NCBI RefSeq assembly: GCF_000429645.1
Contig: NZ_KE386935.1
Location: 1 to 64,000 of the forward strand
Reading direction: 5' to 3'
Origin: Niveispirillum irakense DSM 11586
GTDB lineage: Bacteria; Pseudomonadota; Alphaproteobacteria; Azospirillales; Azospirillaceae
DNA length: 64,000 bases
Shown here: positions 11,726 through 36,599 of the stretch, one piece after another
Layout of the letters: each line of letters begins with the position of its first letter
How positions within the stretch are numbered: position 1 is the first letter of the stretch
Position numbers and translations under genes: made by a program
Notes under the pieces: generated by a model
Database searches by the model: none
What the model saw: the letters and a program-made list of their open reading frames with translations, nothing else
What the model was told of the DNA's origin: nothing

Positions 11726-11740
11726 CCCATCCCCTCCCGA

Positions 11741-17018: not shown

Positions 17019-17831
17019 ATGACCACCGATACTGTTGCTTTCGATGTCGTGGACGGCATCGCCTGGGTCCGTTTCAACCGTCCCGAAAAGCGCAACTGCA
17101 TGAGCCCGACCCTGAACCGCCGCATGATGGAGGTTCTGGACGAGCTGGAATTTCGTGACGATGTCGGCGTGCTGGTCCTGTCCGGCGAGGGCACGGCCTG
17201 GTCCGCCGGCATGGACCTGAAGGAATATTTCCGCGAGACGGAAGCCAAGGGCCTGGGCGCCACACGGCAGGCGCAGCGGGAAAGCTATGGCTGGTGGCGG
17301 CGCCTGCGCTGGTATCAGAAGCCGACCATCGCCATGGTCAATGGCTGGTGCTTTGGCGGCGGCTATGGCCCGCTTTATTCCTGCGATCTGGCGATTGCGG
17401 CGGAAGAGGCAAAGTTCGGCCTGTCTGAGATCAACTGGGGCATCCTGCCCGGCGGCGGCGCCACCAAGGTGGTTGTCGATCTGATCCCGATGCGTGATGC
17501 CATGTATCACGCCATGACGGGTGAAGCGATCGACGGCAAGAAGGCCGCCGAGTGGCGGCTGGTGAATGAGGCCGTGCCGCTGGCCCAGTTGAAGGACCGC
17601 GTGACGGAAATCGCCAAGGTGCTGCTGGAAAAGAACCCGGTGGCGCTGAAGGCGACGAAGGATGCCGTGCGCCGGGTCAAGGAAATGACCTACGACAATG
17701 CCGAGGATTATCTGGTCCGCGCGCAGGAAGCAGCCAATTCCTACGATAATGACGGGCGCAAGGAAGGCATCCGTCAGTTCATCGACGAGAAGAGCTACAA
17801 GCCCGGTCTCGGCGCCTATAAGCGCGGGTGA
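17019..17831 (+). CDS. ech: Feruloyl-CoA hydratase/lyase (p-hydroxycinnamoyl-CoA hydratase/lyase)
   Basis: This crotonase-family enzyme of 270 residues hydrates feruloyl-CoA (or coumaroyl-CoA) and cleaves it to vanillin (or 4-hydroxybenzaldehyde) plus acetyl-CoA. The sequence closely follows characterised HCHL enzymes: SAGMDLKEYFRE near residue 65, KPTIAMVNGWCFGGGYGPL near residue 105, the catalytic glutamate region FGLSEINWGI, and the C-terminal KSYKPGLGAYKR. It lies between vdh and fcs in one direction, completing the CoA-dependent non-oxidative ferulate pathway. A strong hairpin begins seven bases after its stop codon, so the fcs gene 323 bases downstream may be transcribed at a different level. 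Confidence 0.95.
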   Translation: MTTDTVAFDVVDGIAWVRFNRPEKRNCMSPTLNRRMMEVLDELEFRDDVGVLVLSGEGTAWSAGMDLKEYFRETEAKGLGATRQAQRESYGWWRRLRWYQKPTIAMVNGWCFGGGYGPLYSCDLAIAAEEAKFGLSEINWGILPGGGATKVVVDLIPMRDAMYHAMTGEAIDGKKAAEWRLVNEAVPLAQLKDRVTEIAKVLLEKNPVALKATKDAVRRVKEMTYDNAEDYLVRAQEAANSYDNDGRKEGIRQFIDEKSYKPGLGAYKRG

Positions 17832-17837
17832 CCCCAT

Positions 17838-17916: not shown

Positions 17917-17918
17917 TA

Positions 17919-20563: not shown

Positions 20564-20633
20564 GTACCCCCTTATTCTGAATAGGTCCCTTGGGGGTTGG
20601 TGCCGCCAGGGGGTCGATTTTTGCCCAAAAGAC

Positions 20634-20643
20634 CTGTATACAG
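20634..20643. promoter_or_regulatory. CTGTATACAG palindrome, possible VanR operator
   Basis: This perfect 10-base palindrome lies 39 bases upstream of the vanA start codon. FadR-type GntR regulators commonly bind short palindromes with a TATA-like centre, and a VanR gene lies inside the operon. A site of ten bases can arise by chance. Confidence 0.4.
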
Positions 20644-20681
20644 ATATCAAAACCTACAAACAGATCAGGGAGAGATGGACC

Positions 20682-21725: not shown

Positions 21726-21739
21726 AAGGTGGCGGGAGC

Positions 21740-22471
21740 ATGAGCTACAATAAGGACGCGGCCCAGACCGTCCGGGCGCTTGCCGCCATCCGCGACCTGA
21801 TCCTGCGCGGCGGGGTAGAGCCGGGGGAGCGGTTGTCGGAACCGGGACTGGCGGAAAAGCTGGGCATTTCCCGCACCCCCATCCGCGCCGCCCTGGCAAG
21901 GCTGGAACAGGAGGGCTTGCTGGAACGGGTGCCCACCGGCGGCCACATGCCCCGCCGGTTCACCCTGGAAGAAGCCATCGACGCCATTGAACTGCGGGGC
22001 GTGCTGGAAGGAACGGCGGCGCGGCTGGCGGCCGAGCGCGGGGTGGAACCGCGCCGGATGCTGGCGATCAACCGCGTGCTGGAAGCCATCGACGCGCTGA
22101 TGGCACCCAGCCCGACCAACTCGCCGCTGGACCATTATATGGCGTTGAACGCGGAGTTCCACGCCCTGCTGTCCGGCCTGTCGGGCAGCGAGACGATCGA
22201 GCGGGAGATCGACCGCATCACCCGTCTGCCCTTTGCCGCCCCCAGTGCTTTCCTGGAACGGCCGGGCGCCAGCGTGGTGCCCCATTCCCTGGTGCTGGCG
22301 CAGGCCCAGCATCGCGCCCTGGTTGAAGCGATCAGCCTGCGCGAAGGGGCAAGGGCGGAAGCGGTGGCGCGCGAACATGCGCGGCTGGCAAGACGCAACC
22401 TGGAACAGGTGATGGAGGGCGGGGACGAAGCCTTGCGCCGCTTCCCCGCCCTGGCGCTGGTCGCCGGATAA
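21740..22471 (+). CDS. vanR: GntR-family (FadR subfamily) regulator, VanR type
   Basis: This is a 243-residue regulator with an N-terminal winged helix (LSEPGLAEKLGISRTPIRAALARLEQEGLLERVP) and an all-helical FadR-type C-terminal ligand domain (FCD: LNAEFHALLSGLSG and HRALVEAISLREGARAEAVAREH). The start at 21740 is chosen because AGGTGGCGGGAG precedes it and it lies 14 bases after vanA; an upstream in-frame extension would overlap vanA. VanR proteins repress vanAB and respond to vanillate. Here the gene lies between vanA and vanB, so the repressor is made with the enzymes it probably controls. Confidence 0.88.
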   Translation: MSYNKDAAQTVRALAAIRDLILRGGVEPGERLSEPGLAEKLGISRTPIRAALARLEQEGLLERVPTGGHMPRRFTLEEAIDAIELRGVLEGTAARLAAERGVEPRRMLAINRVLEAIDALMAPSPTNSPLDHYMALNAEFHALLSGLSGSETIEREIDRITRLPFAAPSAFLERPGASVVPHSLVLAQAQHRALVEAISLREGARAEAVAREHARLARRNLEQVMEGGDEALRRFPALALVAG

Positions 22472-22499
22472 TCAAAACCCGTTAAAGGGAGGAAACAGA

Positions 22500-23471
22500 A
22501 TGAAAAATGATGCCATCTGGCTGGATGCCAACGTCACCCAGATCGACGATGTCGCCGAAGGCGTGCGCCGTATCGCCTTTGCTGCACCCCAGGCCCTTCC
22601 CGCCTTTGACCCCGGATCGCACATTGCCATCCGGGCGGCCCTGGCGGGTGGTCACGCGATCCGCACCTATTCCTGCCTGCCTGACGCGGCCCCCGGCGAA
22701 GTCGCCGTCGCCGTGAAGCTGCACCCCAACAGCCGGGGCGGGTCACGCTATATGTTCAGCCTGAAACCCGGCGACACGGTACGGATCACGACACCGGAAA
22801 ACCGTTTTGATCTGTCCTGGCGGGCAGCCGATTATCTGCTGCTGGCCGGCGGCATTGGCGTGACGCCGATCTATGGCATGGCCCTGGCGCTGGCGGCGCG
22901 GGGTGCTGCCCTGCGCATGGAATATGGCGGGCAAAGCCTGGGCGCGATGCCCTTCACCGCCCCGTTGCAGGCGGCCCTGGGCGACCGGCTGGCGCTGCAC
23001 CCCCAGGATCAGGGAAGCATGATCGACCTGGACCGCGCCATCGCCGCCCTGTCCCCGCAAGGGGAGCTTTATATCTGCGGCCCCCTGCCGATGCTGGAAG
23101 CGGCAAAGGCCGCCTGGGCGCGGGCCGGGCGCCCGACCAGCCGTTTCCGGTACGAAGTGTTCGGCGATACCGGCCGCTTCACCGAAGCCCCCTTCACCGT
23201 GCGCGTTGCCGGCTATGACCAGGCGGTGACCGTGGCCCCGGACCAGTCCCTGCTGGATGCGCTGGATGATGCCGGCATCCCCATGATTCATGATTGCCGG
23301 CGGGGCGAGTGTGGGCTGTGCGTCGTGGATGTGCTGGATCATGACGCCCCGATCGACCATCGCGACGTCTTCCTGTCAGACGGGGAAAAACAGGAAGGCA
23401 CCCGCCTTTGTGCCTGCGTCTCCCGCTTTTCCGGCGGGGAAGCGGTCATTGATACCGGCTATCGCCCCTGA
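22500..23471 (+). CDS. vanB: Vanillate O-demethylase reductase subunit VanB
   Basis: This is an electron-transfer partner of VanA, 323 residues long. The N-terminal FAD/FMN-binding domain contains IRTYSCLP and the nucleotide-binding segment LLLAGGIGVTPIYGMALAL. A NAD(P)H domain follows, with YICGPLPMLEA. A C-terminal plant-type [2Fe-2S] domain has ligands in CRRGECGLC and a final cysteine in RLCACVS. This domain order is that of the phthalate dioxygenase reductase family to which VanB belongs. AGGGAGGAAA precedes the ATG. It is the last gene of the van operon and converges on the minus-strand MarR gene. Confidence 0.95.
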   Translation: MKNDAIWLDANVTQIDDVAEGVRRIAFAAPQALPAFDPGSHIAIRAALAGGHAIRTYSCLPDAAPGEVAVAVKLHPNSRGGSRYMFSLKPGDTVRITTPENRFDLSWRAADYLLLAGGIGVTPIYGMALALAARGAALRMEYGGQSLGAMPFTAPLQAALGDRLALHPQDQGSMIDLDRAIAALSPQGELYICGPLPMLEAAKAAWARAGRPTSRFRYEVFGDTGRFTEAPFTVRVAGYDQAVTVAPDQSLLDALDDAGIPMIHDCRRGECGLCVVDVLDHDAPIDHRDVFLSDGEKQEGTRLCACVSRFSGGEAVIDTGYRP

Positions 23472-23526: not shown

Positions 23527-24000
23527 CTACCCCCGGAAGCGGCTTTGATAGATACGGTCCAGCAGCCCCAGCAGCAGGGTTCGCTCCTCATCCGACAGGT
23601 CGGATGTCACATCGCGCTCCGTCTCTTCCAGATTGGCGAAGAGTTGCGCCAGCGCCTGCCGCCCCCCCTCGGTTATCACCAGTTCATAAAAGCGCCGGTC
23701 GGTCGATGAACGGCGGCGCTCGGCCCAGCCGCGCCCTTCCAGATCATCCACGATCTGCACCGTGGCGGACTTGTCCAGCCCCACTTCGCGGGACAATAAA
23801 TTCTGCGAAATCCCCGGATTTGCCGCGATGATGGCGAGGGAACTGAACAGGCCGGACCGCAGGTTCAGGTCGGCATTGCGTGCCGCGAAATTACGCGACA
23901 GATGATTTTGAATTCGCCGCAACCGGAACCCGATAAAGTCGCCTAAACGTCCCAGGTCAATCTCAGGCTGCTCGCCACCCTCTTGCTTGTCTTTCGCCAT
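23527..24000 (-). CDS. MarR-family transcriptional regulator
   Basis: This is a 157-residue winged-helix regulator. The recognition region ISQNLLSREVGLDKSATVQIVDDLEGRGWAERR and the wing SSTDRRFYELVITEGG are typical of MarR. It is divergent from the TonB receptor at 24210, and the shared promoter region contains two strong palindromes, one of them the GTTAT-N5-ATAAC motif also found at vdh and the MFS gene. It is therefore the better candidate for a local repressor that links the receptor/TRAP/CoA-transferase operon with the ferulate genes. The ligand is unknown. An imperfect GC-rich hairpin overlaps its stop codon and may end transcription from both sides. Confidence 0.88.
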   Translation of the reverse strand: MAKDKQEGGEQPEIDLGRLGDFIGFRLRRIQNHLSRNFAARNADLNLRSGLFSSLAIIAANPGISQNLLSREVGLDKSATVQIVDDLEGRGWAERRRSSTDRRFYELVITEGGRQALAQLFANLEETERDVTSDLSDEERTLLLGLLDRIYQSRFRG

Positions 24001-24145: not shown

Positions 24146-24209
24146 GAAAGGCACAAGAGCCTTCATGCGGGGCAAAGAACCCCGCTCCTACATCCAGGGA
24201 GGATGCCCA

Positions 24210-26603
24210 ATGTTAAGGAAGTGGACGCTTTGCGGTGCCGCGCCCATGGCGCTTGCCGTCGGTTTATGCGCCGTGCCTGCGATCGCCCAGGGCCAGCAGG
24301 CCCCGGCCCCGATCCAGCTTGAAGAGATCATCGTCACGGCGGAGCGCCGTTCCACCAGCCTGCAAGACACGCCCATCGCCATCACCGCGCTGACGGCAGA
24401 AGATTTGCGTGAGCAGGGGGTCGTGGACTTGAAGGGCGTGGCCGATGCGACGCCCAATTTCCAGATGACCACATCGGGCAATGGCTCCGGCGGCGGCAAT
24501 TTCGCCCAGCTTTTCATCCGTGGTGTCGGCCAGCCGGACTTCATCATCACCAAGGATCCCGCCGTCGGCATCTATATTGACGGCGTCTATCTGGCCCGTG
24601 CGCCGGGTGCCGTTCTGGAACTGCTGGATATTGAGCGGGTGGAGGTGCTGCGCGGGCCCCAGGGCACGCTGTTCGGCAAGAACACGTCGGGCGGTGCGCT
24701 CAACATCACGACCCAGGCCCCGTCGGATGATTTCGGTGGCGTCGCGGAAATGCGCATCGGTGAATATGGCCGCCTGGATGTGGGCGGGTCCGTCAGCCTG
24801 CCGCTGGTGGAGGACAAGCTGGCCCTGCGCGTCAGCGCCCTGTCGCGGGATCAGGATGGCTATTACAAGCGCCTGCTGCCATCGACCGACGGGTCCCGTC
24901 GCAATGGCAATGACATCAATGTCCGCAGCGGGCGCGCCACCCTGGCCTGGACACCGACCGACACGCTGTCTGTCACCCTGTCCGGCGATGTCACGCGCGA
25001 ACGTCAGGCGGCCACCGATTATCAGGCCATCGGCATCTTCAACGATGCCGCCAGCGCCCCCAATATCGAGCTTTACAACCGTGTCGTGCTGGCCCCGCAG
25101 GGGCTGGTCTATGATGATCGCTGGATCGCGCCAAAGCCCTGGACCACCTATTCCACCTCCTCATCCTATGCCAATTCCGATGTCTGGGGCGTGTCCGGCG
25201 TCGTGAACTGGAGCCCCGGCGCGGTGAATGTGAAATCCATCACCGCCTATCGCGACCTGGATGTCAGCAGCAAGGCCGACGCCGATGGCACACCTGCCGA
25301 TATCGTGGCCTCCGCCGGCATCAATGTGCAGCAGCACCAGTTCAGCCAGGAATTTCAGTTCAGCGGCGAAGCGTTCGATGATCGGCTGAACTGGCTGGTC
25401 GGCCTCTGGTACTTCAATGAGAAGGCCACCGATACCCAGTCGTCGCGCCAGTTGGTCGGCCTGGTGGATGCGCTGCGCGCCGCACCCAACCGGTCCATCG
25501 CCCCGCCGGGCGTGGCCGCTTCGGTTTGCCCGGCCAATGGCACCGGCCCTGCCTCCTGCCTGGGCGGCGCCAATAACAGTGCCAACCTGCGCTATGATCA
25601 GGCGCGCCTGGGCAATCGCTGGCTGGAAGGGTCCAGCTATGCCGCCTTCGCCCATGCCGGCTTTAAGGTCACGGAAGATTTCAGCCTGACCGCCGGCGGC
25701 CGCATCAGCCGGGAAAAGAAGGATTTCCGCTATTACGAGGTGCGGCCCTCACAGAATAATCTGGTCAGCTTCAATAATGTAACGGCCGGCGACACCTGGG
25801 ATGTGTTCACGCCCAAGCTCGGGGCGGAATACCGGTTCGACCAGAACATGATGGCCTATGTCTCCTGGTCCAAGGGCTTCAAGGCCGGCGGCGTCAATGG
25901 CCGCCCCACCCGTGCCGACCTGTTCAACACCTTCGATCCGGAAAAGCTGACCGCCTATGAGGCCGGCTTCAAGGGCGACTTCTTCGACCGTCGCCTGCGT
26001 CTGAACCTGGCCGCCTATTTCAGCGAATATAACGCCATCCAGATCACCCGGAACACCACCGACGCCACCGGCGCCTTCATCCGCCTGGAAACCAATGGCG
26101 GCGATGGCGAGATCAAGGGGCTGGAAGCCGAGGCCACGGCCCTGCTGGCCGACGGCCTGACCCTGCAGGCGGGCCTTGGCTATACGGATTTCAAGTTCAC
26201 CTCCCTGCTGCCGCAGCAGGCGACACCCGGCACGGTGCTGCTGACGCTGGATAATGAACTGCCCTTCGTGCCGAAATTCACCGCCAATCTGGGCCTGACC
26301 TATGAGGTGCCGGTATCTGCGGACGGCGCCGCCCTGCGCCTGCGCGGCGACTGGCGCCATTCCAGCAGCTATTACATCGATATTGACAATACCGCAGCCG
26401 TGGCCCAGGGCGCCTATGATGTGTTCGATGGCCGCATCACCTTCGTACCGGCCTCGGGCGGCTGGGAACTGTTCGTGGCGATGAGCAACATCACCAACAA
26501 GGCCGTCATCGCCAATGGCGTGGCGTCGCCCGCCAATGGCAACCAGATGGTCACCTACAAGCCGCCGCGCATGACCTATGGCGGGGTGCGGGTGACCTTC
26601 TGA
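24210..26603 (+). CDS. TonB-dependent outer-membrane receptor
   Basis: This receptor has about 797 residues. The ATG at 24210 is chosen because CAGGGAGGATG precedes it; it gives a signal peptide ending AIAQG. A TonB box-like EEIIVTAERR is followed by the plug (TPIAITALTAEDLREQGV, VEVLRGPQGTLFGKNTSGG) and a barrel ending GGVRVTF. It is the first gene in a run of plus-strand genes with a TRAP transporter, four CoA-transferases and a dehydratase-like protein, so it probably brings the same unknown compound across the outer membrane. An inverted repeat 34 bases after its stop may reduce read-through into the TRAP genes. Confidence 0.9.
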   Translation: MLRKWTLCGAAPMALAVGLCAVPAIAQGQQAPAPIQLEEIIVTAERRSTSLQDTPIAITALTAEDLREQGVVDLKGVADATPNFQMTTSGNGSGGGNFAQLFIRGVGQPDFIITKDPAVGIYIDGVYLARAPGAVLELLDIERVEVLRGPQGTLFGKNTSGGALNITTQAPSDDFGGVAEMRIGEYGRLDVGGSVSLPLVEDKLALRVSALSRDQDGYYKRLLPSTDGSRRNGNDINVRSGRATLAWTPTDTLSVTLSGDVTRERQAATDYQAIGIFNDAASAPNIELYNRVVLAPQGLVYDDRWIAPKPWTTYSTSSSYANSDVWGVSGVVNWSPGAVNVKSITAYRDLDVSSKADADGTPADIVASAGINVQQHQFSQEFQFSGEAFDDRLNWLVGLWYFNEKATDTQSSRQLVGLVDALRAAPNRSIAPPGVAASVCPANGTGPASCLGGANNSANLRYDQARLGNRWLEGSSYAAFAHAGFKVTEDFSLTAGGRISREKKDFRYYEVRPSQNNLVSFNNVTAGDTWDVFTPKLGAEYRFDQNMMAYVSWSKGFKAGGVNGRPTRADLFNTFDPEKLTAYEAGFKGDFFDRRLRLNLAAYFSEYNAIQITRNTTDATGAFIRLETNGGDGEIKGLEAEATALLADGLTLQAGLGYTDFKFTSLLPQQATPGTVLLTLDNELPFVPKFTANLGLTYEVPVSADGAALRLRGDWRHSSSYYIDIDNTAAVAQGAYDVFDGRITFVPASGGWELFVAMSNITNKAVIANGVASPANGNQMVTYKPPRMTYGGVRVTF

Positions 26604-26636: not shown

Positions 26637-26663
26637 GTCATCCCGGTGACAGGCCGGGATGAC
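26637..26663. terminator. Perfect inverted repeat after the TonB receptor gene
   Basis: The arms GTCATCCCGG (26637-26646) and CCGGGATGAC (26654-26663) surround a 7-base loop. This is a short relative of the palindrome at 3099-3237. No U tract follows, so it may attenuate rather than terminate. The right arm contains the first possible start codon of dctQ. Confidence 0.5.
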
Positions 26664-27195
26664 GAGAGAAGCAATAAGCGGAGACGTGCATTTGGCCCAA
26701 CGTTTTGACAAACCACCGCCAGCCAAGGGCGGTCTTCTGACCCGGATTTCCTTCCTTCTGGGGTCGGCGGGTCTGCTGGTCGCCATGTCCGCCGATGCCA
26801 TCGCCGTGCTGGGCCGGCATGTCGGCTTCACCTTCCTGGGCGCGATTGAGATTGTGCAGGCCAGTGTGGTGCTGGCGGCCTCGGCCGCGATGGTCGGCGC
26901 CACCCTGTCCGGCGCCCATGCCCGCGTTCATATCCTGATCGAGCGGCTGGGCACCCTCTGGCACCGGCGGATGGACCAAGGCGCCGACCTCATCTCCTGC
27001 CTGTTCTTCCTGTTCCTGGCCGCCGGGTCCGCCTGGGTTGCGGCCGATCTGTGGGCGGGGTTCGAGGTGACGGAGATCCTGGGCCTTCCCCTGCGCTGGC
27101 TGCGGCTGGTCTGGATCGGCTCCTGCCTGCTGATCGCCGGCCTGTTCCTGTGGCGCGCCCTGACCCAACCGACGGAGCCCGGTCATGACGCCTGA
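26659..27195 (+). CDS. TRAP transporter small permease (DctQ type)
   Basis: This inner-membrane protein of up to 178 residues has four hydrophobic segments: ISFLLGSAGLLVAMSADAIAVLG, EIVQASVVLAASAAMVGATL, LISCLFFLFLAAGSAWVAADL and LVWIGSCLLIAGLFLW. With DctM it forms the membrane part of a TRAP carrier driven by ion gradients. The ATG at 26659 lies inside a hairpin arm. A TTG at 26692, seven bases after GGAGA, is a credible alternative start and would remove 11 residues. It overlaps dctM by 11 bases, so the two are coupled. The high-affinity substrate is set by the DctP protein encoded two genes on. Confidence 0.88.
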   Translation: MTREAISGDVHLAQRFDKPPPAKGGLLTRISFLLGSAGLLVAMSADAIAVLGRHVGFTFLGAIEIVQASVVLAASAAMVGATLSGAHARVHILIERLGTLWHRRMDQGADLISCLFFLFLAAGSAWVAADLWAGFEVTEILGLPLRWLRLVWIGSCLLIAGLFLWRALTQPTEPGHDA

Positions 27196-28489
27196 ACTCT
27201 GGGGTGCCATAGGCGTCGTTGTTCTTCTGACCATGCTGACCCTGGGCCTGCCCATCGGGGTCGCCCTGGCCGCCGTCGGGGCCGGGGGCATCGCCATCCT
27301 GGTCACACCGGAAGCCGCATTGATCAAGGCCGGCGTGGTGGCGTTTGAGACCATCGCCAAGTACGAGTTGGGCGTGCTGCCCCTGTTCCTGCTGATGGCG
27401 CATCTTTGTTTTGCAGCCGGGGCCAGCCGCGATTTCTTCGACGTCGCCGCGCGCTTCATCGGGCACCGGCCGGGCGGGCTGGCGCTGGCCTCCATCGCCG
27501 GCTGTGCCGGGTTCGGCGCCATCAGCGGCTCCAGCCTCGCCACCGCCGCCACCATCGGTTCCGTGGCCCTGCCGGAGATGCGCAAGCACAACTACTCCCC
27601 CGCCTTCGCCACGGGAGCGCTGGCCGCCGGCGGCACCTTGGGCGCGTTGATCCCGCCATCCGGCGCCTTGATCGTGTTCGGCATCATCGCCGAACAATCC
27701 ATCGGCCGCCTGTTCGCCGCCGCCGTGATCCCGGGGCTGAGCCAGGCGCTGTTCTACATGATCGGCATCTATATCCTGTGCCGCATCTGGCCCGAACTGG
27801 GGCCGAGGACGGCGCGGGTGGCGTGGCGGGACCGGCTGCCGGCCCTGCGGCGGATCATCGACATCCTGGCGCTGGTCATGTTCGTGGTCGGCGGCCTGAT
27901 GGTCGGCTGGTTCACGCCGACGGAGGCCGCATCGGTCGGGGCCGTCGGTTCCTTCCTGCTCTGTGCCATCCGGGGGGCGCTGACGCGGGCCGCCATGACC
28001 AAGGCGCTGGCGGACACATTGCGCACCACCGGCATGATCTATGTCGTCATCATCGGCGCCATCCTGTTTTCCACCTTCGTCAGCCTGACCGGCATTACCG
28101 GCCACATGTCGGCCCTGGTGACCGACCTGGGGGCCGGGCCGCTGGTGGCGGTGCTGGTGATCGCTTTGCTGCTGCTGGTGCTGGGATCATTCCTGGACGG
28201 GTTGGCGCTGATGCTGCTGACAGCACCCATCTTCCTGCCCATCATTGTCGACCTGGGCCTTTCGCCCATCTGGTTCGGCATCTTCCTGGTGCGCACCATG
28301 GAAATCGGCTTTGTGCATCCGCCGCTGGGGCTGAACTGCTACGTCATCCATGGCATCGCCAAGGATATCCCGCTGGGCACCATCTTCCGCGGCATCGTGC
28401 CCTTCCTGGCCATAGATTTCCTGCATCTGGCCATGATCATTGCCTTCCCGGCGGTGACCCTGTGGCTGCCCAAAGTGCTGGGGGCTTGA
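27185..28489 (+). CDS. TRAP transporter large permease (DctM type)
   Basis: This 434-residue integral membrane protein of the DctM family has about 12 hydrophobic helices. Recognisable family features include GAISGSSLATAATIGSVALPEM near residue 115, the GALIPPSGALIVFGIIAEQSIGRLFAAAVIPG block, and the closing VHPPLGLNCYVIHGIAKDIPLGTIFRG. It is the transport channel of the system, overlapping dctQ at its start and followed one base after its stop by dctP. The unusual position, upstream of CoA-transferase genes, suggests an organic acid that is activated with CoA once inside. Confidence 0.93.
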   Translation: MTPELWGAIGVVVLLTMLTLGLPIGVALAAVGAGGIAILVTPEAALIKAGVVAFETIAKYELGVLPLFLLMAHLCFAAGASRDFFDVAARFIGHRPGGLALASIAGCAGFGAISGSSLATAATIGSVALPEMRKHNYSPAFATGALAAGGTLGALIPPSGALIVFGIIAEQSIGRLFAAAVIPGLSQALFYMIGIYILCRIWPELGPRTARVAWRDRLPALRRIIDILALVMFVVGGLMVGWFTPTEAASVGAVGSFLLCAIRGALTRAAMTKALADTLRTTGMIYVVIIGAILFSTFVSLTGITGHMSALVTDLGAGPLVAVLVIALLLLVLGSFLDGLALMLLTAPIFLPIIVDLGLSPIWFGIFLVRTMEIGFVHPPLGLNCYVIHGIAKDIPLGTIFRGIVPFLAIDFLHLAMIIAFPAVTLWLPKVLGA

Positions 28490-28490: not shown

Positions 28491-29585
28491 ATGATAGGCA
28501 AGCATCTGAAACAGCTTCTCGCCGCCTGCGCCCTGATCGCCCTGTCTGCCTGTGGCGGCAAGGAAGAGCCCGCAAGCGGCGCCATCACCCTGTCCTATGC
28601 CAGCCCCTACCCGCCCAGCCATCCGTTCAGCAAGGCCGACATCGAGTGGATGCAGGCGGTCGCGACGAAATCCGGCGGTCGGCTGGTGATCAAACCCTTC
28701 TGGTCGGGATCGCTGATCAGTTCCGACCAGAGCATGGTGGAAATCCGCCATGGCGTGGCCGATATCGGCCTGATCACGCCCATCTATGCCCGTGGCGGGG
28801 CGCATGCGCTGCGCGGGCAGGCCGGCTTCTATGGCGGCATCAAGGATCTGCCCGATCAGGTTGCCATTTATAAATGCCTGGAACAGGCATTTCCCGTCTT
28901 CCGTGCGGAGTTGGAAGGGCTGCATGTCCTGGCGGTACAGGGCGGCAATTTCCCCGGCGTGCTGACGCGGCACAAGCCGATTGAGCGGCTGGAGGATTTG
29001 CGCGGCCTGCGCCTGCGGGCCCAGACTGAGGCGCTGGGCGTGCTGCGCGACCTGGGTGCTGATCCCGTCAATATGCCGATGGGGGAGGTTTATTCCGCCC
29101 TGGCCAAAGGCGTGATCGACGGGGTCGTAGCCCCGGCGGACACGATCACATCGCTGCATTTCGGGGAAGTGGCGCCTTATTTCACAGCATTGCATTTTGA
29201 TCGCGGCGCCTATCCGGCGCGTGCCATGTCCGACAAGGCCTGGCAGCGGCTGACACCGGAACTGCGCCAGGTGCTGATGGAAACGCAGCCCGTCTGGGAG
29301 GCGGCGCTGGCCCGCCAGATCCTGGTCGCGGAGGAACGCGGGCTGGAAAAGGGCAAGGATCTCGGCATGCGCATGATCATGGCCCTGCCGCCAGCCGATC
29401 AGGAACGGTTCCGCCTCCTTTACGCCGAAAATGCCCGCCGCATCGCCGATGAACTGGCGCATTTCGATGTCGATGGTCACCCGATCCTGACCCATGCCCA
29501 GGAATTGATCGCCGCACGGGCGCGGGGGGAGACCCCGGCCTGCTTCGGCCCCGAAAACCCGCAACAGGCGGAGGTGTCGCCATGA
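28491..29585 (+). CDS. TRAP transporter substrate-binding protein (DctP type), lipoprotein
   Basis: This solute receptor has 364 residues. The lipobox LIALSACGG gives a lipidated cysteine at residue 21, so it is probably tethered to a membrane rather than free in the periplasm, which is less common for DctP proteins. Family features include ITLSYASPYPPSHPFSKADIEWMQAV, a WSGSLISSDQSMVEIRHGVADIG segment, and the LRGLRLRAQTEALGVLRDLGADPVNMPMGEVYSALAKGVIDG core, which carries the carboxylate-binding arginine in DctP proteins. A carboxylic acid ligand is therefore likely; which acid is unknown. It overlaps the first CoA-transferase gene by four bases. Confidence 0.92.
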   Translation: MIGKHLKQLLAACALIALSACGGKEEPASGAITLSYASPYPPSHPFSKADIEWMQAVATKSGGRLVIKPFWSGSLISSDQSMVEIRHGVADIGLITPIYARGGAHALRGQAGFYGGIKDLPDQVAIYKCLEQAFPVFRAELEGLHVLAVQGGNFPGVLTRHKPIERLEDLRGLRLRAQTEALGVLRDLGADPVNMPMGEVYSALAKGVIDGVVAPADTITSLHFGEVAPYFTALHFDRGAYPARAMSDKAWQRLTPELRQVLMETQPVWEAALARQILVAEERGLEKGKDLGMRMIMALPPADQERFRLLYAENARRIADELAHFDVDGHPILTHAQELIAARARGETPACFGPENPQQAEVSP

Positions 29586-30790
29586 CACGCGAGAGCCCCC
29601 TGGAAGCCCCCCTGGCCGGGCTGCGCATCGCCGATTTCAGTTGGGTCGGCGCCGGCCCGCGCGCCACCAAGGATCTGGCCGATTACGGCGCCACCGTCAT
29701 CAAGGTGGAAAGCGCCAAGCGCCTGGACCTCGGCCGCCTGTCCCCACCCTTCAAGGATGGAAAGCGCCACCATGACGCATCCGCCTTTTTCGCCATCACC
29801 AATACCGGCAAGCAGGGCGTGACCATCAACCTGAATGACCCGCGCGGCATCGCGGTGGCGAAAAAGCTGGTCGCCTGGGCCGATGTGGTGGTGGAGAATT
29901 TCGGCAAGGGCTACATGGACCGGATCGGCCTGTCCTGGGACACCCTGAAAGCCATCAAGCCGGATATCATCCTGCTGTCGGTCAGCGTCACCGGGCGCAC
30001 CGGCCCCCTGTCCGACCTGCGCGGCTATGGCAATTCCGCCGCCGCCCTGTCGGGCTTTGCGTCCCTGTCCGGCTGGCCCGACCGGGGGCCGCACATGGCG
30101 CCCTTTGCCTATGGCGACGTGGTGGCGCCGATGATGGCGACAGTGGCGGTGCTGGCGGCGCTGGAACATCGGCGGGTGACGGGCGAGGGCCAGCATCTGG
30201 ACGTGTCGCAGGTGGAACCGATGATGCTGGTCACGTCGGACTGTCTGGCCGACGGGCAGCGCGGGATTGAGCCGCGACGCGGCAATGACGATGCCCGCAT
30301 GGAGCCACACGGCCTGTTCCCCTGCCGCGGCCCCGATCAATGGTGCGCCATCGCCGTGCGCGACGATGGCGATTGGCAAATCCTGGCCGAGCTGGCGGGG
30401 ATTGATGATCAACGTTTTGCCACGCTTGAAGGCCGCAAGACCCATGCGGCGGACCTGCGTGCCTTGCTGTCGGCCTGGACCCGGACACAGGACAAGCACC
30501 GGCTGGCCGACCATCTGTCCGCCGCCGGGGTGCCGGCGGAAGCCGTGAATGATGGGCGCGACGTGTTCACCGACGCCGAACTGGAACGCGCCGGCCATTA
30601 CCATCGCATCCGCCATGAAAAGCTGGGCGATTGCGAGATGCCGGGGCCGCCACTGCGCTTTTCCGATGCCGCCATCCATGTCGGCCCGCCGCCCCTGCTG
30701 GGTGGCGATAACCGCGCCGTCTTTGTCGACCTGCTGGGCATGGACCCAGGCGTGGTCGATGAACTGACCGCCGCCGGCGCGCTGGCGTGA
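29582..30790 (+). CDS. Family III (CaiB/BaiF) CoA-transferase, catalytic type
   Basis: This 402-residue protein of the CaiB/BaiF family moves CoA between carboxylic acids through an aspartyl-CoA intermediate. The N-terminal fold signature LRIADFSWVGAGPRATKDLADYGATVIKVE and the ENFGKGYMDRIGL motif are present. The catalytic aspartate is predicted to be D179 in APFAYGDVVAP, followed by VTGEGQHLDVS. It is the first of four such genes in a row, overlaps the end of dctP, and has a shorter neighbour lacking the aspartate. The pair resembles two-subunit enzymes such as benzylsuccinate CoA-transferase BbsEF, in which one subunit is catalytic. The substrate is unknown. Confidence 0.88.
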   Translation: MTRESPLEAPLAGLRIADFSWVGAGPRATKDLADYGATVIKVESAKRLDLGRLSPPFKDGKRHHDASAFFAITNTGKQGVTINLNDPRGIAVAKKLVAWADVVVENFGKGYMDRIGLSWDTLKAIKPDIILLSVSVTGRTGPLSDLRGYGNSAAALSGFASLSGWPDRGPHMAPFAYGDVVAPMMATVAVLAALEHRRVTGEGQHLDVSQVEPMMLVTSDCLADGQRGIEPRRGNDDARMEPHGLFPCRGPDQWCAIAVRDDGDWQILAELAGIDDQRFATLEGRKTHAADLRALLSAWTRTQDKHRLADHLSAAGVPAEAVNDGRDVFTDAELERAGHYHRIRHEKLGDCEMPGPPLRFSDAAIHVGPPPLLGGDNRAVFVDLLGMDPGVVDELTAAGALA

Positions 30791-30800: not shown

Positions 30801-31793
30801 ATGCTGAACCATCTGACCATCATCGACGCGACGGGCGAGTTGGGTGCCCTGGCCGGCCATATGCTGGCGCAATTGGGGGCGTCGGTCACCCGGCTGGCCC
30901 CGGCGGGGGGCGAGAAGGCGGACCCGGTGTGGAACCGGGACAAGCGTTGCGTTGCGCTGGACGATGCCGATCTGCCTTCCCTGTTGACGGATGCCGACAT
31001 CCTGCTGCGCAACGGGCCGCTGCCGGGCGTGGCGCCGGCGGATTATCCGCACCTGATCGACGTGCTGCTGACACCCTTTGCCTGTACGGACCGCCCGGCC
31101 ACCGACCTGACGCTGATGGCGCGGTCGGGCCTGCTGCATATTGGCGGCGATCCAGACCGGGAACCGCTGCGCCTTCCTGGGCAGCAAGCCTATGCGCTGG
31201 GCGCCATCCAGGCGGTGATCGGGGCGCTGACGGCACTGCATGCCCGCAAGGACAAGGGACAGCAGGTCACCGTGTCGGCCTATCAGGCCGCCGTGCTGGC
31301 CAATTATCGCGAACCGGTGATGTGGGATTGGGCCGGCAAGGTTGGCGGGCGGCAGGGCAATCTGCTGGTGCGCGGCAAGTCGGGGGTCAATCAGGTCTGG
31401 AAGGTGGCCGATGGCTGGGTCACCTGGGCCCTGGTCGACAATCCCGGCATGATGCGCGCCATGGTCGCCCTGATGCAGACCGATGATATGGCGGGGCCGC
31501 TGGCCGGGGTGGAGTGGGAGACTATCCTGGTCGCCGATCTGCCGCAGGAAACGCTGAAGGGTTGGGAAAAGATCGTGGGGGCGTTCTTCGCCACCAAAAC
31601 CCGCGCCTTCCTGGCCGAACAATCCAACCGCCACGGCATGGGCCTGTCTGCCATTGATGAACCGGATGATGTGCTGAACAGCGCGCATCACGCGGCGCGC
31701 GGGGCCTTCGTCCCCTTCGATGATCCCGTGTCGGGCCGCACCCTCCGCGTGCCCGGCCCCCTGTTCCGGACCAGCCGGGAGGATGCGCGATGA
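30801..31793 (+). CDS. CaiB/BaiF-family protein lacking the catalytic aspartate
   Basis: This 330-residue protein is about 70 residues shorter than its neighbours but keeps the family frame: LTIIDATGELGALAGHMLAQLGASVTRL at the N terminus and ALTALHARKDKGQQVTVSAYQ in the middle. The segment that should hold the aspartate reads LPGQQAYALGAIQAV and contains no Asp, and the VENF motif is replaced by LLRNGPLPGV. It is therefore probably not active alone. The likely role is a structural partner of the catalytic protein encoded ten bases upstream, as in BbsEF-type heterodimers. Its stop overlaps the next gene by four bases. Confidence 0.8.
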   Translation: MLNHLTIIDATGELGALAGHMLAQLGASVTRLAPAGGEKADPVWNRDKRCVALDDADLPSLLTDADILLRNGPLPGVAPADYPHLIDVLLTPFACTDRPATDLTLMARSGLLHIGGDPDREPLRLPGQQAYALGAIQAVIGALTALHARKDKGQQVTVSAYQAAVLANYREPVMWDWAGKVGGRQGNLLVRGKSGVNQVWKVADGWVTWALVDNPGMMRAMVALMQTDDMAGPLAGVEWETILVADLPQETLKGWEKIVGAFFATKTRAFLAEQSNRHGMGLSAIDEPDDVLNSAHHAARGAFVPFDDPVSGRTLRVPGPLFRTSREDAR

Positions 31794-32983
31794 ACGGCCC
31801 GCTTTCCGGCCTGAATGTGGTCGATTTTTCCAAGTTCCTGCCCGGCCCCTATTGCACCTGGATGCTGGGCAATCTGGGTGCCGATATCATCCGGGTGGAA
31901 AACCCGCGCGAGTTGGCCAAGCAGGCGCAGGTGTTCGGCTGGGACAAGCTGGATGATGACGCCCGCGCGGACCTGCGCGCCCGTGACATCTATGCCCGCA
32001 ACAAGCGCAGCCTGGTCATCGATCCCGGTCACGCCGACGCCCGGCCGGTGATCGAGGCGCTGGTGGCGAAGGCCGATATATTGGTGGAGGATTACCGGCC
32101 CGGCGTGATGGACAGCATGGGTTATGGTGCCGCCGCTATGCTGGCCCTGAACCCCAGGCTGGTCTATGCGTCGGTCACGCTGTGCGGACAAACGGGGCCC
32201 TATCGGGACAAGCCGGGGCATGATCCGGTGGCACTCGCCATCGCTGGCGCCCTATCGCGCATCGGGGAGGACCCGGCCAAGCCCAGCTTCCCCGGCGTGC
32301 CCGTAGCCGATCTGTTGAGCGGATCGAACGCCGTCATCGGCATCCTGTCCGCCATCATTGCACGGGGCGTAACGGGCCGGGGCCAGCATGTCGATGTCGC
32401 CATGTCCGACGCCTCGCTGGCCCTGATCGCCAGCACCCTTTCCCGCAATCCCGACCTGTCGAAAGCACCCGGACGCGGCAAACGGCGGGCGGATAGCGGC
32501 ATCTGGGAAACCGCGGACGGCCGCTTCATCACCACCACCGACATGGAACCCCGCTACTGGCAGCGTTTCTGCACCGCCGTGGGCCGTCCGGATTTCGCCG
32601 GTTTGCAGATGGATATCAGCCGCCGGACGGAAATCGCCGACACGCTGGCCGGTATCTTCCGCAGCAAGCCCCTGGCCGAATGGCTGGACATCCTGGCGCC
32701 GGCGGATACGCAATTCGCACCCGTGCATGACCTGCAGGGCGCCATGGCAGACCCGCACAACCGGGCGCGCGGCATGGTGTTTGACGTGCCGCTGCCCGGC
32801 GGCGGCACCGCCCCCCATATCGGCCTGCCCATCCGCCTGTCCGATACGCCCGCCGCCCCGCCGCGACCAGCGGCGCCGGCGGGCGGCGACAGCGACACCA
32901 TTCTGGCCGGCATCGGCCTTTCCCCTACCGACATCCAGTCCCTGCGCGACAAGGGCGCCCTGTCCGCCCGTCAAGGATCATGA
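31790..32983 (+). CDS. Family III (CaiB/BaiF) CoA-transferase
   Basis: This is the third member of the series, 397 residues. The N terminus LNVVDFSKFLPGPYCTWMLGNLGADIIRVENP is canonical. VEDYRPGVMDSMGYG corresponds to the VENF motif, and the predicted catalytic aspartate is D174 in VPVADLLSGSNAVIG. It is intact and probably active. Both its start and stop overlap neighbouring genes in ATGA junctions, so translation is coupled along the operon. Why one operon needs several transferases is not clear: successive intermediates, a second substrate, or a further heterodimer with the next gene are possible. Confidence 0.88.
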   Translation: MNGPLSGLNVVDFSKFLPGPYCTWMLGNLGADIIRVENPRELAKQAQVFGWDKLDDDARADLRARDIYARNKRSLVIDPGHADARPVIEALVAKADILVEDYRPGVMDSMGYGAAAMLALNPRLVYASVTLCGQTGPYRDKPGHDPVALAIAGALSRIGEDPAKPSFPGVPVADLLSGSNAVIGILSAIIARGVTGRGQHVDVAMSDASLALIASTLSRNPDLSKAPGRGKRRADSGIWETADGRFITTTDMEPRYWQRFCTAVGRPDFAGLQMDISRRTEIADTLAGIFRSKPLAEWLDILAPADTQFAPVHDLQGAMADPHNRARGMVFDVPLPGGGTAPHIGLPIRLSDTPAAPPRPAAPAGGDSDTILAGIGLSPTDIQSLRDKGALSARQGS

Positions 32984-34239
32984 GCATGAGCATCACCGAA
33001 AACAGCCAGCAGCGCCCCCTGGAAGGACTGCGCGTCCTGGACCTGACCCGCGCTTTGGCGGGCCCTTATGCCACCCTGCTGCTGGCGGGTCTGGGGGCGG
33101 AGGTGATCAAGCTGGAAGACCCGGTCGGCGGTGATCTGGCGCGGGAGAACAGCCCCTATGTCGGGCGCGACGGGGTGGTGGTGGAACGCCGGCACGCGGA
33201 CGATATCTCCATTTCCCACCTGACCCGCGCGCGCGGCAAGCATGGCATCAGCCTGAACCTGAAACACCCCGACGCCAAGGCGGTCTTCGCCGATCTGGTC
33301 AAGGGCTGCGACATTGTGGTGGAGAATTTCACCAGTGGCACCGCCGACCGGCTGGGCGTGGGTTACGCGGCGGCCAAAGAAGCCAATCCGCGCGTGATCT
33401 ATTGTTCCCTCTCCGGCTTCGGCGCCAACGGGTCGGAAGGTGGCAAGGCCATGGATGTGATCATCCAGGCCCTGTCGGGTGCCATGTACACGTCAGGCGC
33501 GCCGGGGGAACCGCCGGTGCGCATGGGTGTGCCCATGGCAGACATGCTGGCCCCCGTCTTCGCCGTTATCGGCATCCTGGCGGCGCTGGAACAAAGACAC
33601 CGGACTGGTGAGGGCCAGCATATCGATGTGTCGATGCTGGGGGCGCTCACCTCCTTCGTCGCTATCGAGAACTGGTCGGCCATGGCCGCCGCCGGCATGC
33701 CGTCGCGCACCGGCCTGACGGTGCAGCGCCTGTCGCCCTTCGGTGTGTTCGAATGCGCGGACGGCTACATCGCCCTGGTCGCGGTGCATGACAAGCTGGC
33801 CGCCGGCCTGTTCCGCGCCATGGGACAGGAGGCGCTGCTGCAGCATCCGCAATTCGCCACCCGCGATGCCCGCGTGGCCAACGCCACCGAGCTGGAAGCG
33901 CGGATCAATGCCTGGTCGCGGCAATTGCCCGTGGCGGAAGTTGTGGCAGCCCTGGAGGCGCAGGGCGTGCCCGTGGCGCCAGTCCGCCATCCGGAGGATG
34001 CGCTGGTCGATCCGCGCGTGGTGGCCCGCAACGAGACGATGCCCATCGCCCATCCCAGCTACAGCTCCGACATTGACCTGCGCACGGCCGGTATCCCGAT
34101 CCTGTTCTCCGGTGCGCGGACGGGCTTCGACCCCGTGTTGCCGGTGGCGATCGGGGAGCATAATGGCGATGTCTATCAACGCCTGACCGGCTACACGCCC
34201 GAGCAATTGCAGCGCCTGAAGCAGCAAGGGGTGATCTGA
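32980..34239 (+). CDS. Family III (CaiB/BaiF) CoA-transferase
   Basis: This is the fourth member, 419 residues, and the most typical of the set. LRVLDLTRALAGPYATLLLAGLGAEVIKLEDP is at the N terminus, VENFTSGTADRLGVGY follows, and the predicted catalytic aspartate is D188 in GVPMADMLAP. The GEGQHIDVSMLGAL segment follows. It carries a 35-residue insert (VGRDGVVVERRHADDISISHL region) seen in many bacterial CoA-transferases. Its stop codon overlaps the start of the dehydratase-like gene by one base (TGATG). Members close to this form often use succinyl-CoA or an acyl-CoA donor; the sequence does not show which. Confidence 0.9.
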   Translation: MSMSITENSQQRPLEGLRVLDLTRALAGPYATLLLAGLGAEVIKLEDPVGGDLARENSPYVGRDGVVVERRHADDISISHLTRARGKHGISLNLKHPDAKAVFADLVKGCDIVVENFTSGTADRLGVGYAAAKEANPRVIYCSLSGFGANGSEGGKAMDVIIQALSGAMYTSGAPGEPPVRMGVPMADMLAPVFAVIGILAALEQRHRTGEGQHIDVSMLGALTSFVAIENWSAMAAAGMPSRTGLTVQRLSPFGVFECADGYIALVAVHDKLAAGLFRAMGQEALLQHPQFATRDARVANATELEARINAWSRQLPVAEVVAALEAQGVPVAPVRHPEDALVDPRVVARNETMPIAHPSYSSDIDLRTAGIPILFSGARTGFDPVLPVAIGEHNGDVYQRLTGYTPEQLQRLKQQGVI

Positions 34240-36599
34240 TGGCCCGCCACCCCGCCCTGGCCACCCTGCTGGCCGCCGCCAATGATCCCGCCGGAACGCT
34301 GGAAACGCTGCGCGGCCAGGGGCATCGGCCCATCCGCCTGCTGGGCATGGACGCGCCCCGCGCCCTGGTGCGGGGGGCGGGACTGCTGCCGGTGCGGCTG
34401 GTGCCCACGCATGAACCGACGCCGATGATGGATGCCATCATGGGCGGCGCCGGCCTGTCGGTGCGCGGCAAGTCGCTGCTGGAACAGATGGTGGGGGACA
34501 GGGCCAAACCCGACCCGGTCCTGATCACCAGTGCCGACAATGAACAGCCCCAGGTCTTCGCCGCCCTGCGCGAACTGGCGCGGCAGGCGGGGGACCGGCT
34601 GGGGCCGGTGCATTTCCTGGATCGTCTCTATGGCGATACCGAAACGGTGGCGCGGTACAATGCCCACCGTCTGGCGCAGGCGCGGGACTGGCTGGCCGAT
34701 ATCGGCGCGCCTTTGGGTGATATGGCCCAGGCCGACACCGATGAAGCCCGGTTGCGCACCCTGCTGGCCCGGGCGCTGGACCTGCGATCGGTCGGCCGGC
34801 TGACGGGGGCCGAGGCGGCGAGGATCGTGGCCGCCGCCGCCATCCTGCCACTGGAACAGGTGGAAGCATCCCTGTCGGCCCTGCTGGCCGATCCCCCGCC
34901 TTTGGTCCCCACAGCATTGCCCCTGTTCCTGACCGGCAGCACGCAGGAGGATTTCCGCACTTATGACGGGCTGGAAGCGGCCGGCGCGCTTGTGGTGGGC
35001 GAGGGACAGGATTGGGGACGCCCCTGGTGCGACATGCAAGCCCCCCTGGCCCGCCGGATCCAAGACGATCCCGCCGCCATCATCGCCATGGCCAAAGGCG
35101 CCGGTGCCGCCGCCCTGGTACATGCCTTGCGCCCCGGTGATGAGGCAGCGCCCTGGGACGCAAAGCCGTTGCGGACCGCCTGCGCCGCCGCCGGCCTGCC
35201 CTTCCTGGCCGTGACCTGGAACGGCAATGGTGAGATGCCCCCGGCGCTCACCCCCTTCCTGGCCGATCCCACGGCCCCGCCGGCACCGCCGGCCCCAAAG
35301 CCCCCCCCCTCCCCCACCCGTGCCGGCGGTGGCCGGGCAGCGTTGAAGCCGCCGACGCGCAGCCGTAAATCGCTGTCCGCCGTCGCCAGTTTCGGGCAGT
35401 TCCAGCGCGACTGGTTCGCGGGCCTGCGGGCACAGGTGGCGGCCGGCGCGCCGCTGGCCGTGGTGAATGCCAATGCACCGCAGGAAATCCTGCGCGCCAT
35501 GGACATTCCCTTTGTCGTGAACCAATGGTGGGCGTCCATCGTGGCCGCGAAACAGCAATCCGGCCGCTATTTCCGCCTGCTGCGCGACCGGGATTATCCG
35601 GCCGATGTGGAAGCCTACAGCGCCCAGGGGCTGGCCGCCGCGTTCGATGAGGATGCGGAGAATGCCCCCTGGGGCGGGTTGCCGAAACCGGATTTCCTGG
35701 CCGCCGTGACCGGCACCGACGCCACCCCCCGCCTTTTCCGCCAGTGGGCGATGGAGACGGGGGCCGACCTTTATCTCTACCAGCGCAGTTTCGACAGCCG
35801 CTGGCAGCTCCCCACCACCTGGTGGGACGATCTGCCCGGCGACTGGGACCAGCATCTGGAACCCGAACGCCTGGACCTGATGGAAGGGGAATTGCGGGCC
35901 CATGTCGCGCGGCTGGAGGCGGCGACGGGCAAACATCTTGATCCGGAGCGTTTCGCCCAGGTGATGGATCTGGTGAATGAGCAGGAGGAATGGTATCGCC
36001 GCACCCGCGACCTGATCGCCGCGACATATCCCGCCCCCGTCAGCATTGTGGATACGATGCCGGCCACCATGGTGCCGCAATGGCATCGCGGCTCCGTCTG
36101 GGCCCGCGACGCCGCCAAGGCGCTGTATGAGGAGGTGGCGGCCCGCGCGGCAGCGGGAGAGGCCGCCTGCGCGAAGGAGCGTGTCCGCCTGATGTGGGTG
36201 GGGCGCGGCCTGTGGAGCGATATGGGTTTCTACCAGCGCTGGGAGGAAAGCCATGGCGCGGTCTTTGTCTGCTCCATGTATCTGTCGCTGGCCGCCGATG
36301 GCTATATCCGCCATCACGACCGGGGGCGCGACCCGATGCGGGCGCTCGCCGCGCGTTTCGTCACCATGGGCGACGAACTGCGCATGCCGACATGGGCCGG
36401 TGCCTGGCATGTGCGTGATGCCCGCCTGCATGGCGTCCAGGGGGCCGTGGCATTGACCGATGCCGACCCGTTTGTACTGCGGGCGCTGGAGGAAGCGGGC
36501 ATCCCCGTGCTGCGGCTGGACCTGGATAATTATAACCAGGAAAGCGCCGACGCGGCCGGCGTGGATGCGGCAGTAACCCGCTTCATTGAGGCATTATAA
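34239..36599 (+). CDS. Fused two-domain 2-hydroxyacyl-CoA dehydratase-like protein
   Basis: At 786 residues this is about twice the length of one HgdA/HgdB-type subunit. The N-terminal half (1-340) follows the HgdB pattern (GAGLLPVRLVPTHEP, ITSADNEQPQVFAALRELA, HFLDRLYGD). A proline-rich linker (about 340-375) separates it from a second half with its own dehydratase-like frame (IPFVVNQWWASIVAAKQQSGRYF, VNEQEEWYRRTRDLIAA, YNQESADAAGVDAAVTRFIEAL). True dehydratase subunits hold a [4Fe-4S] cluster with three cysteines each. Here only C264, C315, C644 and C678 exist, and the early ligand positions are occupied by other residues. No activator ATPase gene is nearby. It ends the CoA-transferase operon. 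The reaction is unknown and may not be a radical dehydration. Confidence 0.78.
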   Translation: MARHPALATLLAAANDPAGTLETLRGQGHRPIRLLGMDAPRALVRGAGLLPVRLVPTHEPTPMMDAIMGGAGLSVRGKSLLEQMVGDRAKPDPVLITSADNEQPQVFAALRELARQAGDRLGPVHFLDRLYGDTETVARYNAHRLAQARDWLADIGAPLGDMAQADTDEARLRTLLARALDLRSVGRLTGAEAARIVAAAAILPLEQVEASLSALLADPPPLVPTALPLFLTGSTQEDFRTYDGLEAAGALVVGEGQDWGRPWCDMQAPLARRIQDDPAAIIAMAKGAGAAALVHALRPGDEAAPWDAKPLRTACAAAGLPFLAVTWNGNGEMPPALTPFLADPTAPPAPPAPKPPPSPTRAGGGRAALKPPTRSRKSLSAVASFGQFQRDWFAGLRAQVAAGAPLAVVNANAPQEILRAMDIPFVVNQWWASIVAAKQQSGRYFRLLRDRDYPADVEAYSAQGLAAAFDEDAENAPWGGLPKPDFLAAVTGTDATPRLFRQWAMETGADLYLYQRSFDSRWQLPTTWWDDLPGDWDQHLEPERLDLMEGELRAHVARLEAATGKHLDPERFAQVMDLVNEQEEWYRRTRDLIAATYPAPVSIVDTMPATMVPQWHRGSVWARDAAKALYEEVAARAAAGEAACAKERVRLMWVGRGLWSDMGFYQRWEESHGAVFVCSMYLSLAADGYIRHHDRGRDPMRALAARFVTMGDELRMPTWAGAWHVRDARLHGVQGAVALTDADPFVLRALEEAGIPVLRLDLDNYNQESADAAGVDAAVTRFIEAL

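Follow-up and report, generated by a model that had tools for sequence, protein, structure and literature searches.

A fused protein with both subunit folds of the 2-hydroxyacyl-CoA dehydratase/benzoyl-CoA reductase superfamily in Niveispirillum irakense: a predicted cluster-free acyl-CoA enzyme with acidic residues at former cluster-ligand sites

Enzymes of the 2-hydroxyacyl-CoA dehydratase/benzoyl-CoA reductase (HAD/BCR) type exemplify oxygen-sensitive radical chemistry. In the Had operon a class III CoA-transferase, HadA, accompanies them, and in that of phenyllactate dehydratase (FldABC/FldI) a CaiB transferase and two HAD subunits are encoded together. Both operons resemble one in Niveispirillum irakense DSM 11586, located within the window analysed here (the first 64,000 nucleotides of contig NZ_KE386935.1, assembly GCF_000429645.1), in which a single open reading frame (ORF; 34239–36599, forward strand, 786 open codons from an ATG) codes for the equivalents of both HAD/BCR subunits.

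In benzoyl-CoA reductase BzdNO (8s02), according to PMC11971306, the cluster ligands of BzdO are Cys95, Cys128 and Cys380, with the same coordination in HadB, and those of BzdN are Cys36, 73, 100, 263, 293 and 327; the thioester oxygen is held by BzdO Tyr97, Tyr298 and Gln274. The fused protein shares the fold of BzdNO and the equivalents of Tyr97 and Tyr298, but Cys95, Cys128 and Cys380 are replaced, Gln274 corresponds to Arg656, and no BzdPQ-type activator was found in the genome. Similarly, (R)-2-hydroxyisocaproyl-CoA dehydratase HadBC (3o3m, 3o3n, 3o3o) has the fold of both halves and Tyr at the Y460 and Y681 columns, whereas the window protein is a single chain with no Cys at the ligand columns, Gln in place of a conserved Glu, and no activase found in its genome. 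The parallel with FldABC/FldI is limited in the same way, as no FldI-type activase was found and the ligand cysteines are gone. The double-cubane cluster protein (6eno, 7yyl, 7yzm) shares the N-half fold, but the window protein lacks Cys at the tested ligand columns and falls below the cut-off of the corresponding equivalog (NF040772, 29.6 bits, cut-off 350).

The fused protein is likely to be a cluster-free, activator-independent acyl-CoA enzyme that carries both HAD/BCR subunit folds on one chain, as judged from residue alignments and a predicted structure. It probably uses polar, carboxylate- or metal-assisted chemistry in a catabolic operon beside class III CoA-transferases. That it is active, and on what substrate, we infer from sequence, and the name 2-hydroxyacyl-CoA dehydratase should not be applied to it.

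The AlphaFold model (72 aligned sequences) has a mean predicted local distance difference test score (pLDDT) of 92.4 and a predicted template modelling score of 0.92. The modelled C-half matches HadB (Z 36.7, root-mean-square deviation 2.2 Å over 380 residues) and also BzdO and MbdO, while the modelled N-half matches HadC (Z 33.4, 2.6 Å over 338 residues) and double-cubane proteins (6eno, Z 32.0); matches below Z 9 are common Rossmann-like ones and were not used. In the model the single chain mimics the catalytic HAD/BCR heterodimer, in agreement with the initial annotation, which had placed both halves on one 786-residue chain. Pfam detects the C-half only (HGD-D, PF06050; residues 412–786, E 7.1e-43, 147.9 bits, cut-off 28.4), and no other HGD-D protein is present in the genome. 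NCBIfam equivalogs for HadB (68.9 bits, cut-off 750), BzdO (45.7, cut-off 448.6) and BzdN (14.7, cut-off 453.8) all score below their cut-offs. An artefactual or chance ORF is excluded by 85–87% identical fused copies in three genomes of the same genus and by 40 other aligned fused rows.

One scan confirmed 361 relatives, of which 80 were returned and used for the counts; the other 281 lie outside them. Family loci and genomes are cited below by L and G numbers. The C-half alignment holds 80 family rows (79 scan loci and the window, the 310-residue L066 having been excluded as too short), three canonical alpha subunits, six split relatives and a HadB fragment; the structure alignment omitted L024, L032, L050, L065, L066 and 15 of the 35 actinomycete C-subunits. 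Cys is absent from all 80 family C-halves at the alpha ligand columns 458, 494 and 744, and at column 493 as well. Columns 458 and 494 are each acidic in 78 of the 80, and an invariant Asp, D743, lies one column before the third ligand column, which is P744 in the window protein and Cys in all three canonical rows. Column 494 is likewise Cys in the three canonical alpha rows. In HadB numbering we take columns 458, 494 and 429 to be C84, C117 and Glu55. The aligner set C117 at column 493 (S 34, G 29, T 17 in the family), and its assignment to D494, one column later, follows from the gap-free stretch downstream of the PDF motif.

For the N-half, the test was confined to three columns that are Cys in all three canonical beta rows, as the other BzdN ligand positions are not confidently placed. 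None of them is Cys in the window protein, which carries S74, D100 and D301 instead. Column 301 is also Asp in all 11 actinomycete rows (L068, L072, L081, L083, L084, L085, L089, L091, L092, L098 and L099) and in 5/5 other split rows. The initial annotation had described most cluster cysteines as missing; the loss stands, and 'most' understates it, since no tested ligand column is Cys.

The thioester pocket, by contrast with the lost ligands, appears to be kept. The tyrosines of columns 460 and 681, invariant in the 80 family rows, are present in all six split relatives and in two of the three canonical rows; we assign Y460 to the position of BzdO Tyr97. The invariant R656, at the position of BzdO Gln274, is absent from all six split relatives and all three canonical rows. 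The Glu replaced by the invariant Q429 would correspond to BzdO Glu65, at the cluster-bound water. An apparently kept thioester site, an added positive charge, carboxylates where the cluster ligands were and a lost Glu together suggest that polar, enolate-type chemistry fits better than radical chemistry, and the invariant, putatively thioester-binding tyrosines lend support to the cluster-free CoA-thioester reaction proposed from the initial reading of this DNA.

In the proposed mechanism the TRAP system would import a carboxylate onto which the CaiB transferases would load CoA. The C-half may then bind the thioester in the manner of BzdO, and an oxyanion or enolate could be stabilised by Y460, Y681 and R656. 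Acid/base or Lewis-acid catalysis close to the acyl group could come from the carboxylates of E458, D494 and D743, acting by themselves or together with a divalent metal in the former cluster pocket. No radical or ATP-driven one-electron chemistry would be involved. Candidate reactions include elimination or hydration, epimerisation and C–C cleavage, and the neighbouring genes prompt a guess at hydroxy or aryl acids freed from plant hydroxycinnamate esters as substrates.

Searches for an activase bear directly on this proposal. The window's genome has a single PF01869 match above the cut-off and two weaker ones below it. The former is rejected as an activase, its only NCBIfam match being N-acetylglucosamine kinase (75.9 bits, cut-off 370) and its gene adjoining an AgaS-family SIS-domain gene. 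A model built from four activases (threshold E ≤ 1e-10) found no match in 39 of 41 genomes, the window's among the 39; the window and the 80 scan loci come from 81 genomes, of which these 41 were used, and in eight of the 41 only 57 of 65–96 first-look candidates were scored. The two matches, one in the Amycolatopsis genome of L083 (E 8e-111) and one in the Prauserella genome of L098 (E 2e-95), indicate that the search works, true activases scoring E 1e-95 to 1e-135 with the model; the three plasmids that supplied model activases match, as expected. No activase was found in six further genomes (G004, G005, G006, G010, G014 and G037) or on four plasmids with split relatives, and overall 45 of the 47 genomes that carry the family or its split relatives yielded none. 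The claim that no activator gene lies near the fused gene therefore holds genome-wide by both the PF01869 and the activase-model searches. The counter-evidence that the initial annotation had named, an essential activator elsewhere in the genome or a predicted structure with a sufficient set of cluster ligands, did not appear.

Cys-bearing HAD/BCR pairs with activase genes do occur on plasmids of Rhizobium leguminosarum, Sphingopyxis macrogoltabida and Rhodococcus ruber (L009, L010 and L011), species usually regarded as aerobes.

The only cysteines of the window protein are at 264, 315, 644 and 678, exactly as first listed. Columns 264 and 315 are Cys in 3 and 4 of the 41 fused rows, and column 678 in 8 of the 80 C-halves, 72 having Trp. 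C644 is conserved (36/45 Pseudomonadota, 30/35 actinomycete rows and 2/6 split relatives) and lies off the ligand columns. The four were accordingly rejected as a leftover ligand set. A retained iron-sulfur cluster, held by carboxylates or other residues and supplied with electrons by a system besides the known activase, is extremely unlikely. Ligation of a [4Fe-4S] cluster by a single Asp is known, C644 is conserved in 66/80, and the split relatives L006, L007, L013 and L018 keep Cys458; the three plasmid records and the L018 genome yielded no activase, so these relatives could conceivably use a cluster without an activase of this type. However, neither half has Cys at any of its three tested ligand columns, C644 is not at one of them, and we know of no [4Fe-4S] cluster ligated by three carboxylates.

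Several observations weigh against a cluster-free enzyme with a purpose-built acidic site. The proposal does not account for the conservation of C644. D494 is Asp in all six split relatives too, and so predates the acidic clade and did not arise together with E458; E458 and D743 alone appear to be new, or nearly new, in that clade. Column 458 is Arg in two rows and column 494 Ala or Pro in two, so that neither acid is strictly required. The convergence of E458, D494 and D743 is predicted from the alignment, with D743 one column away from the Cys. With D743 included, five of the six ligand sites over both halves are acidic in the window protein, for which the chance of at least five acids at six sites, at the protein's own acid fraction of 0.125, is 1.6e-4, a figure that depends on counting the off-column D743. 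In the N-half, position 74 is Ser, not an acid, and column 100 stays Cys in 10 of 11 actinomycete beta-like subunits. Finally, no family member has a known activity, and the enzymatic role is a predicted one.

A more specific form of the cluster-free enzyme can be put forward only tentatively: that a widespread aerobic family has rebuilt the [4Fe-4S] radical site as a carboxylate-ligated divalent-metal site, keeping the thioester pocket for metal-assisted enolate chemistry. If true, this would define an undescribed aerobic CoA-ester pathway common to Pseudomonadota and Actinomycetota.

It is unlikely that catalysis has been lost and that the protein serves the CoA-transferases as an acyl-CoA carrier, chaperone or sensor, with acids filling an empty pocket and pairing with conserved arginines. 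The testable known catalytic features of the HAD/BCR family are gone, one CoA-transferase of the operon likewise lacks the Asp of its companions, and two N-half arginines are conserved (R53 in 47/52 rows, R111 in 52/52), Arg53 of BzdN being described as touching the cluster (PMC11971306). Conversely, the strong conservation of the C-half in both phyla, where all 80 rows share Y460, Y681, R656 and Q429, and the placing of an Arg at the thioester carbonyl together resemble a working active site.

The fused gene is the last of an eight-gene run with spacings of -11 to +10 bases, preceded by genes for a TRAP transporter and four class III CoA-transferases or CoA-transferase-like proteins (Table 1), of which the shortened one (30801–31793) suggests a non-catalytic partner subunit. 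To the 5′ side of the operon are a MarR gene (23530–24000, reverse strand) and a TonB receptor gene (24165–26603, forward strand). Downstream, the opposite strand codes for a DUF3237 protein, another TonB receptor, a GDSL hydrolase and a tannase/feruloyl esterase. An island upstream of the operon (14073–23468) includes, at distances of 5 to 11 kb from it, genes for p-hydroxycinnamoyl-CoA hydratase/lyase (HCHL), acyl-CoA ligase, aldehyde dehydrogenase and VanA-like Rieske oxygenase; it also contains an MhpT-like transporter gene (below cut-off) and a ferredoxin-reductase-like gene.

Table 1. Coordinates of the fused gene, its halves and key residues, and of associated genes in the window.
Feature	Coordinates	Strand	Basis or remarks
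Fused HAD/BCR-fold protein, 786 residues	34239..36599	+	ORF, PF06050 match, model fold
N-half, residues 1-345, HadC/BzdN-like fold	34239..35273	+	VIA-align Z 33.4 to 3o3n_B, model residues 3-346
Pro-rich low-confidence linker, residues 346-378	35274..35372	+	pLDDT 61, 51, 67 in blocks spanning residues 351-380
C-half, residues 379-786, HadB/BzdO-like fold	35373..36596	+	VIA-align Z 36.7 to 3o3m_A; PF06050
D100, canonical beta Cys column	34536..34538	+	Cys 3/3 canonical; fused D 34, E 2, N 2, Cys 1 of 41
D301, canonical beta Cys column	35139..35141	+	Cys 3/3 canonical; fused D 38, E 1 of 41
Q429, Glu in canonical alpha subunits	35523..35525	+	Q 80/80; Glu 3/3 canonical and HadB
E458, first [4Fe-4S] Cys column (presumably HadB C84; BzdO C95)	35610..35612	+	E 72, D 6, R 2 of 80
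Y460, taken as BzdO Tyr97 equivalent (thioester carbonyl)	35616..35618	+	Y 80/80
D494, second [4Fe-4S] Cys column (presumably HadB C117; BzdO C128)	35718..35720	+	D 75, E 3, A 1, P 1 of 80
C644, conserved non-ligand cysteine	36168..36170	+	Cys in 66/80; canonical rows V, L, V
R656, BzdO Gln274 position (thioester carbonyl)	36204..36206	+	alignment; R 80/80
Y681, BzdO Tyr298 position (thioester carbonyl)	36279..36281	+	alignment; Y 80/80
D743, one column before third [4Fe-4S] Cys	36465..36467	+	D 80/80
TRAP small permease DctQ	26659..27195	+	
TRAP large permease DctM	27185..28489	+	
TRAP solute-binding protein DctP	28491..29585	+	
Class III (CaiB) CoA-transferase	29582..30790	+	
Short class III CoA-transferase-like protein	30801..31793	+	Tyr where three companions have Asp
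Class III CoA-transferase	31790..32983	+	
Class III CoA-transferase, one base common to fused gene	32980..34239	+	
p-hydroxycinnamoyl-CoA hydratase/lyase (HCHL)	17019..17828	+	NF006588 479.1 bits, cut-off 276

Neighbouring genes were counted over 85 gene-called family loci (the 80 scan loci, the window and four split-family plasmids), and the counts are lower bounds because the home-made gene caller is rough (fewer than six genes in L023, L040, L041, L045, L049, L076 and L078) and contigs end early. Class III CoA-transferases are found in 64 of these loci, CapA (PGA_cap) in 46, TRAP DctM in 38, CocE/NonD-type hydrolases in 35, MarR in 33 and the largest TonB cluster in 30; PaaX-type regulators (28) and SBP_bac_3 (24) are all actinomycete. 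HCHL-like genes occur in five and tannase-like genes in seven. A conserved catabolic locus is found in Sphingomonas, Novosphingobium, Amycolatopsis, Streptomyces and others. CapA/PGA_cap proteins recur near the family in both phyla, although gene calling yielded none in the window. In L052 the CapA protein (11325–12437) is weakly similar to MslH (87.6 bits, cut-off 700), described as a metal-dependent epimerase (PMC10406935).

This neighbourhood raises the prospect of a true non-radical 2-hydroxyacyl-CoA dehydratase, converting for example aryllactyl-CoA to cinnamoyl-CoA that would enter the nearby hydroxycinnamate pathway, in parallel with FldA–FldBC. Such an enzyme would agree with CaiB transferases and two HAD subunits arranged as in the Fld and Had operons, with the HCHL gene above its curated cut-off and the acyl-CoA ligase and aldehyde dehydrogenase genes 7 to 11 kb upstream, and with the tannase/feruloyl esterase and GDSL hydrolase genes downstream. 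We nevertheless regard it as very unlikely, as non-radical removal of an alpha-hydroxyl is chemically difficult, Gln replaces the conserved Glu in 80/80 rows, and the link to HCHL-like and tannase-like genes is not general. HCHL may be linked to the operon, but with HCHL-like genes in only 5/85 loci the connection to hydroxycinnamates is a hint.

The cluster-free, probably polar enzyme proposed here belongs to a family of two phyla. Its Pseudomonadota members (Niveispirillum, Sphingomonas, Novosphingobium, Caulobacter, Povalibacter, Alteromonas, Rubrivivax and others) are almost all fused, the exceptions being L032, in two overlapping frames, and L024 and L066, cut by contig ends; actinomycete members are two adjacent genes, except for a fused form in Klenkia (L080). 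A tree of 51 of the 89 rows, made with a quick method and having long outgroup branches, supports the acidic clade (100), a group of the fused rows with Klenkia (99) and the fused Pseudomonadota (92). An acid at column 458 together with R656, absent from the six split relatives, marks the acidic clade, and split alphaproteobacterial forms branch outside it. This suggests that ligand loss preceded fusion and that fusion occurred once, although the root is unsure because the outgroup branches are long. Fusion was discarded as the key novelty and is a side issue, since unfused actinomycete pairs carry the same acidic site. The initial annotation is thus amended in that ligand loss is complete, replacement is mostly by acids, the family extends over two phyla and fusion is secondary.

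The wider interest lies in this family, with its coherent, mostly acidic site over two phyla and the activase not found in 45/47 genomes. Its members occur in many bacteria that live in air, where they probably act on CoA esters by an oxygen-tolerant chemistry. A family that kept the fold and thioester pocket but lost the ligands and the activase would illustrate conversion of a site for life in air. The database label '2-hydroxyacyl-CoA dehydratase family protein' on split relatives is probably misleading for this branch. Open-licence PMC full text yielded no published account of a Cys-less or aerobic HAD family, which is weak evidence, and no account of the family in connection with rosmarinate or aryllactate catabolism by CoA transfer or with CapA/MslH.

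Ten other genomes of the same genus contain a full copy (three), a copy cut by contig ends (one), a short remnant (one) or no copy (five). The remnant, in L020 (G008), matches residues 732–785 with an internal stop and is probably what is left of the gene.

Among the six split relatives, column 458 is Cys in L006 (11965–13263), L007 (11965–13263), L013 (9905–11188) and L018 (1501–2769) and Pro in L008 and L019; L018 additionally has Cys at columns 493 and 744. The four that keep Cys458 (in Croceicoccus, Novosphingobium and G037) are 38–41% identical to the window C-half, and TRAP and CaiB genes adjoin L006, L007 and L013, with CapA adjoining all four, L018 included; they differ from the window protein in having separate subunits, Cys at column 458 and no Arg656. 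It is possible that they are evolutionary intermediates. Genes for CoA-transferases of ~700 residues, apparently two fused class III units, adjoin the split relatives at L006 (9866–11968) and L007 (9881–11968).

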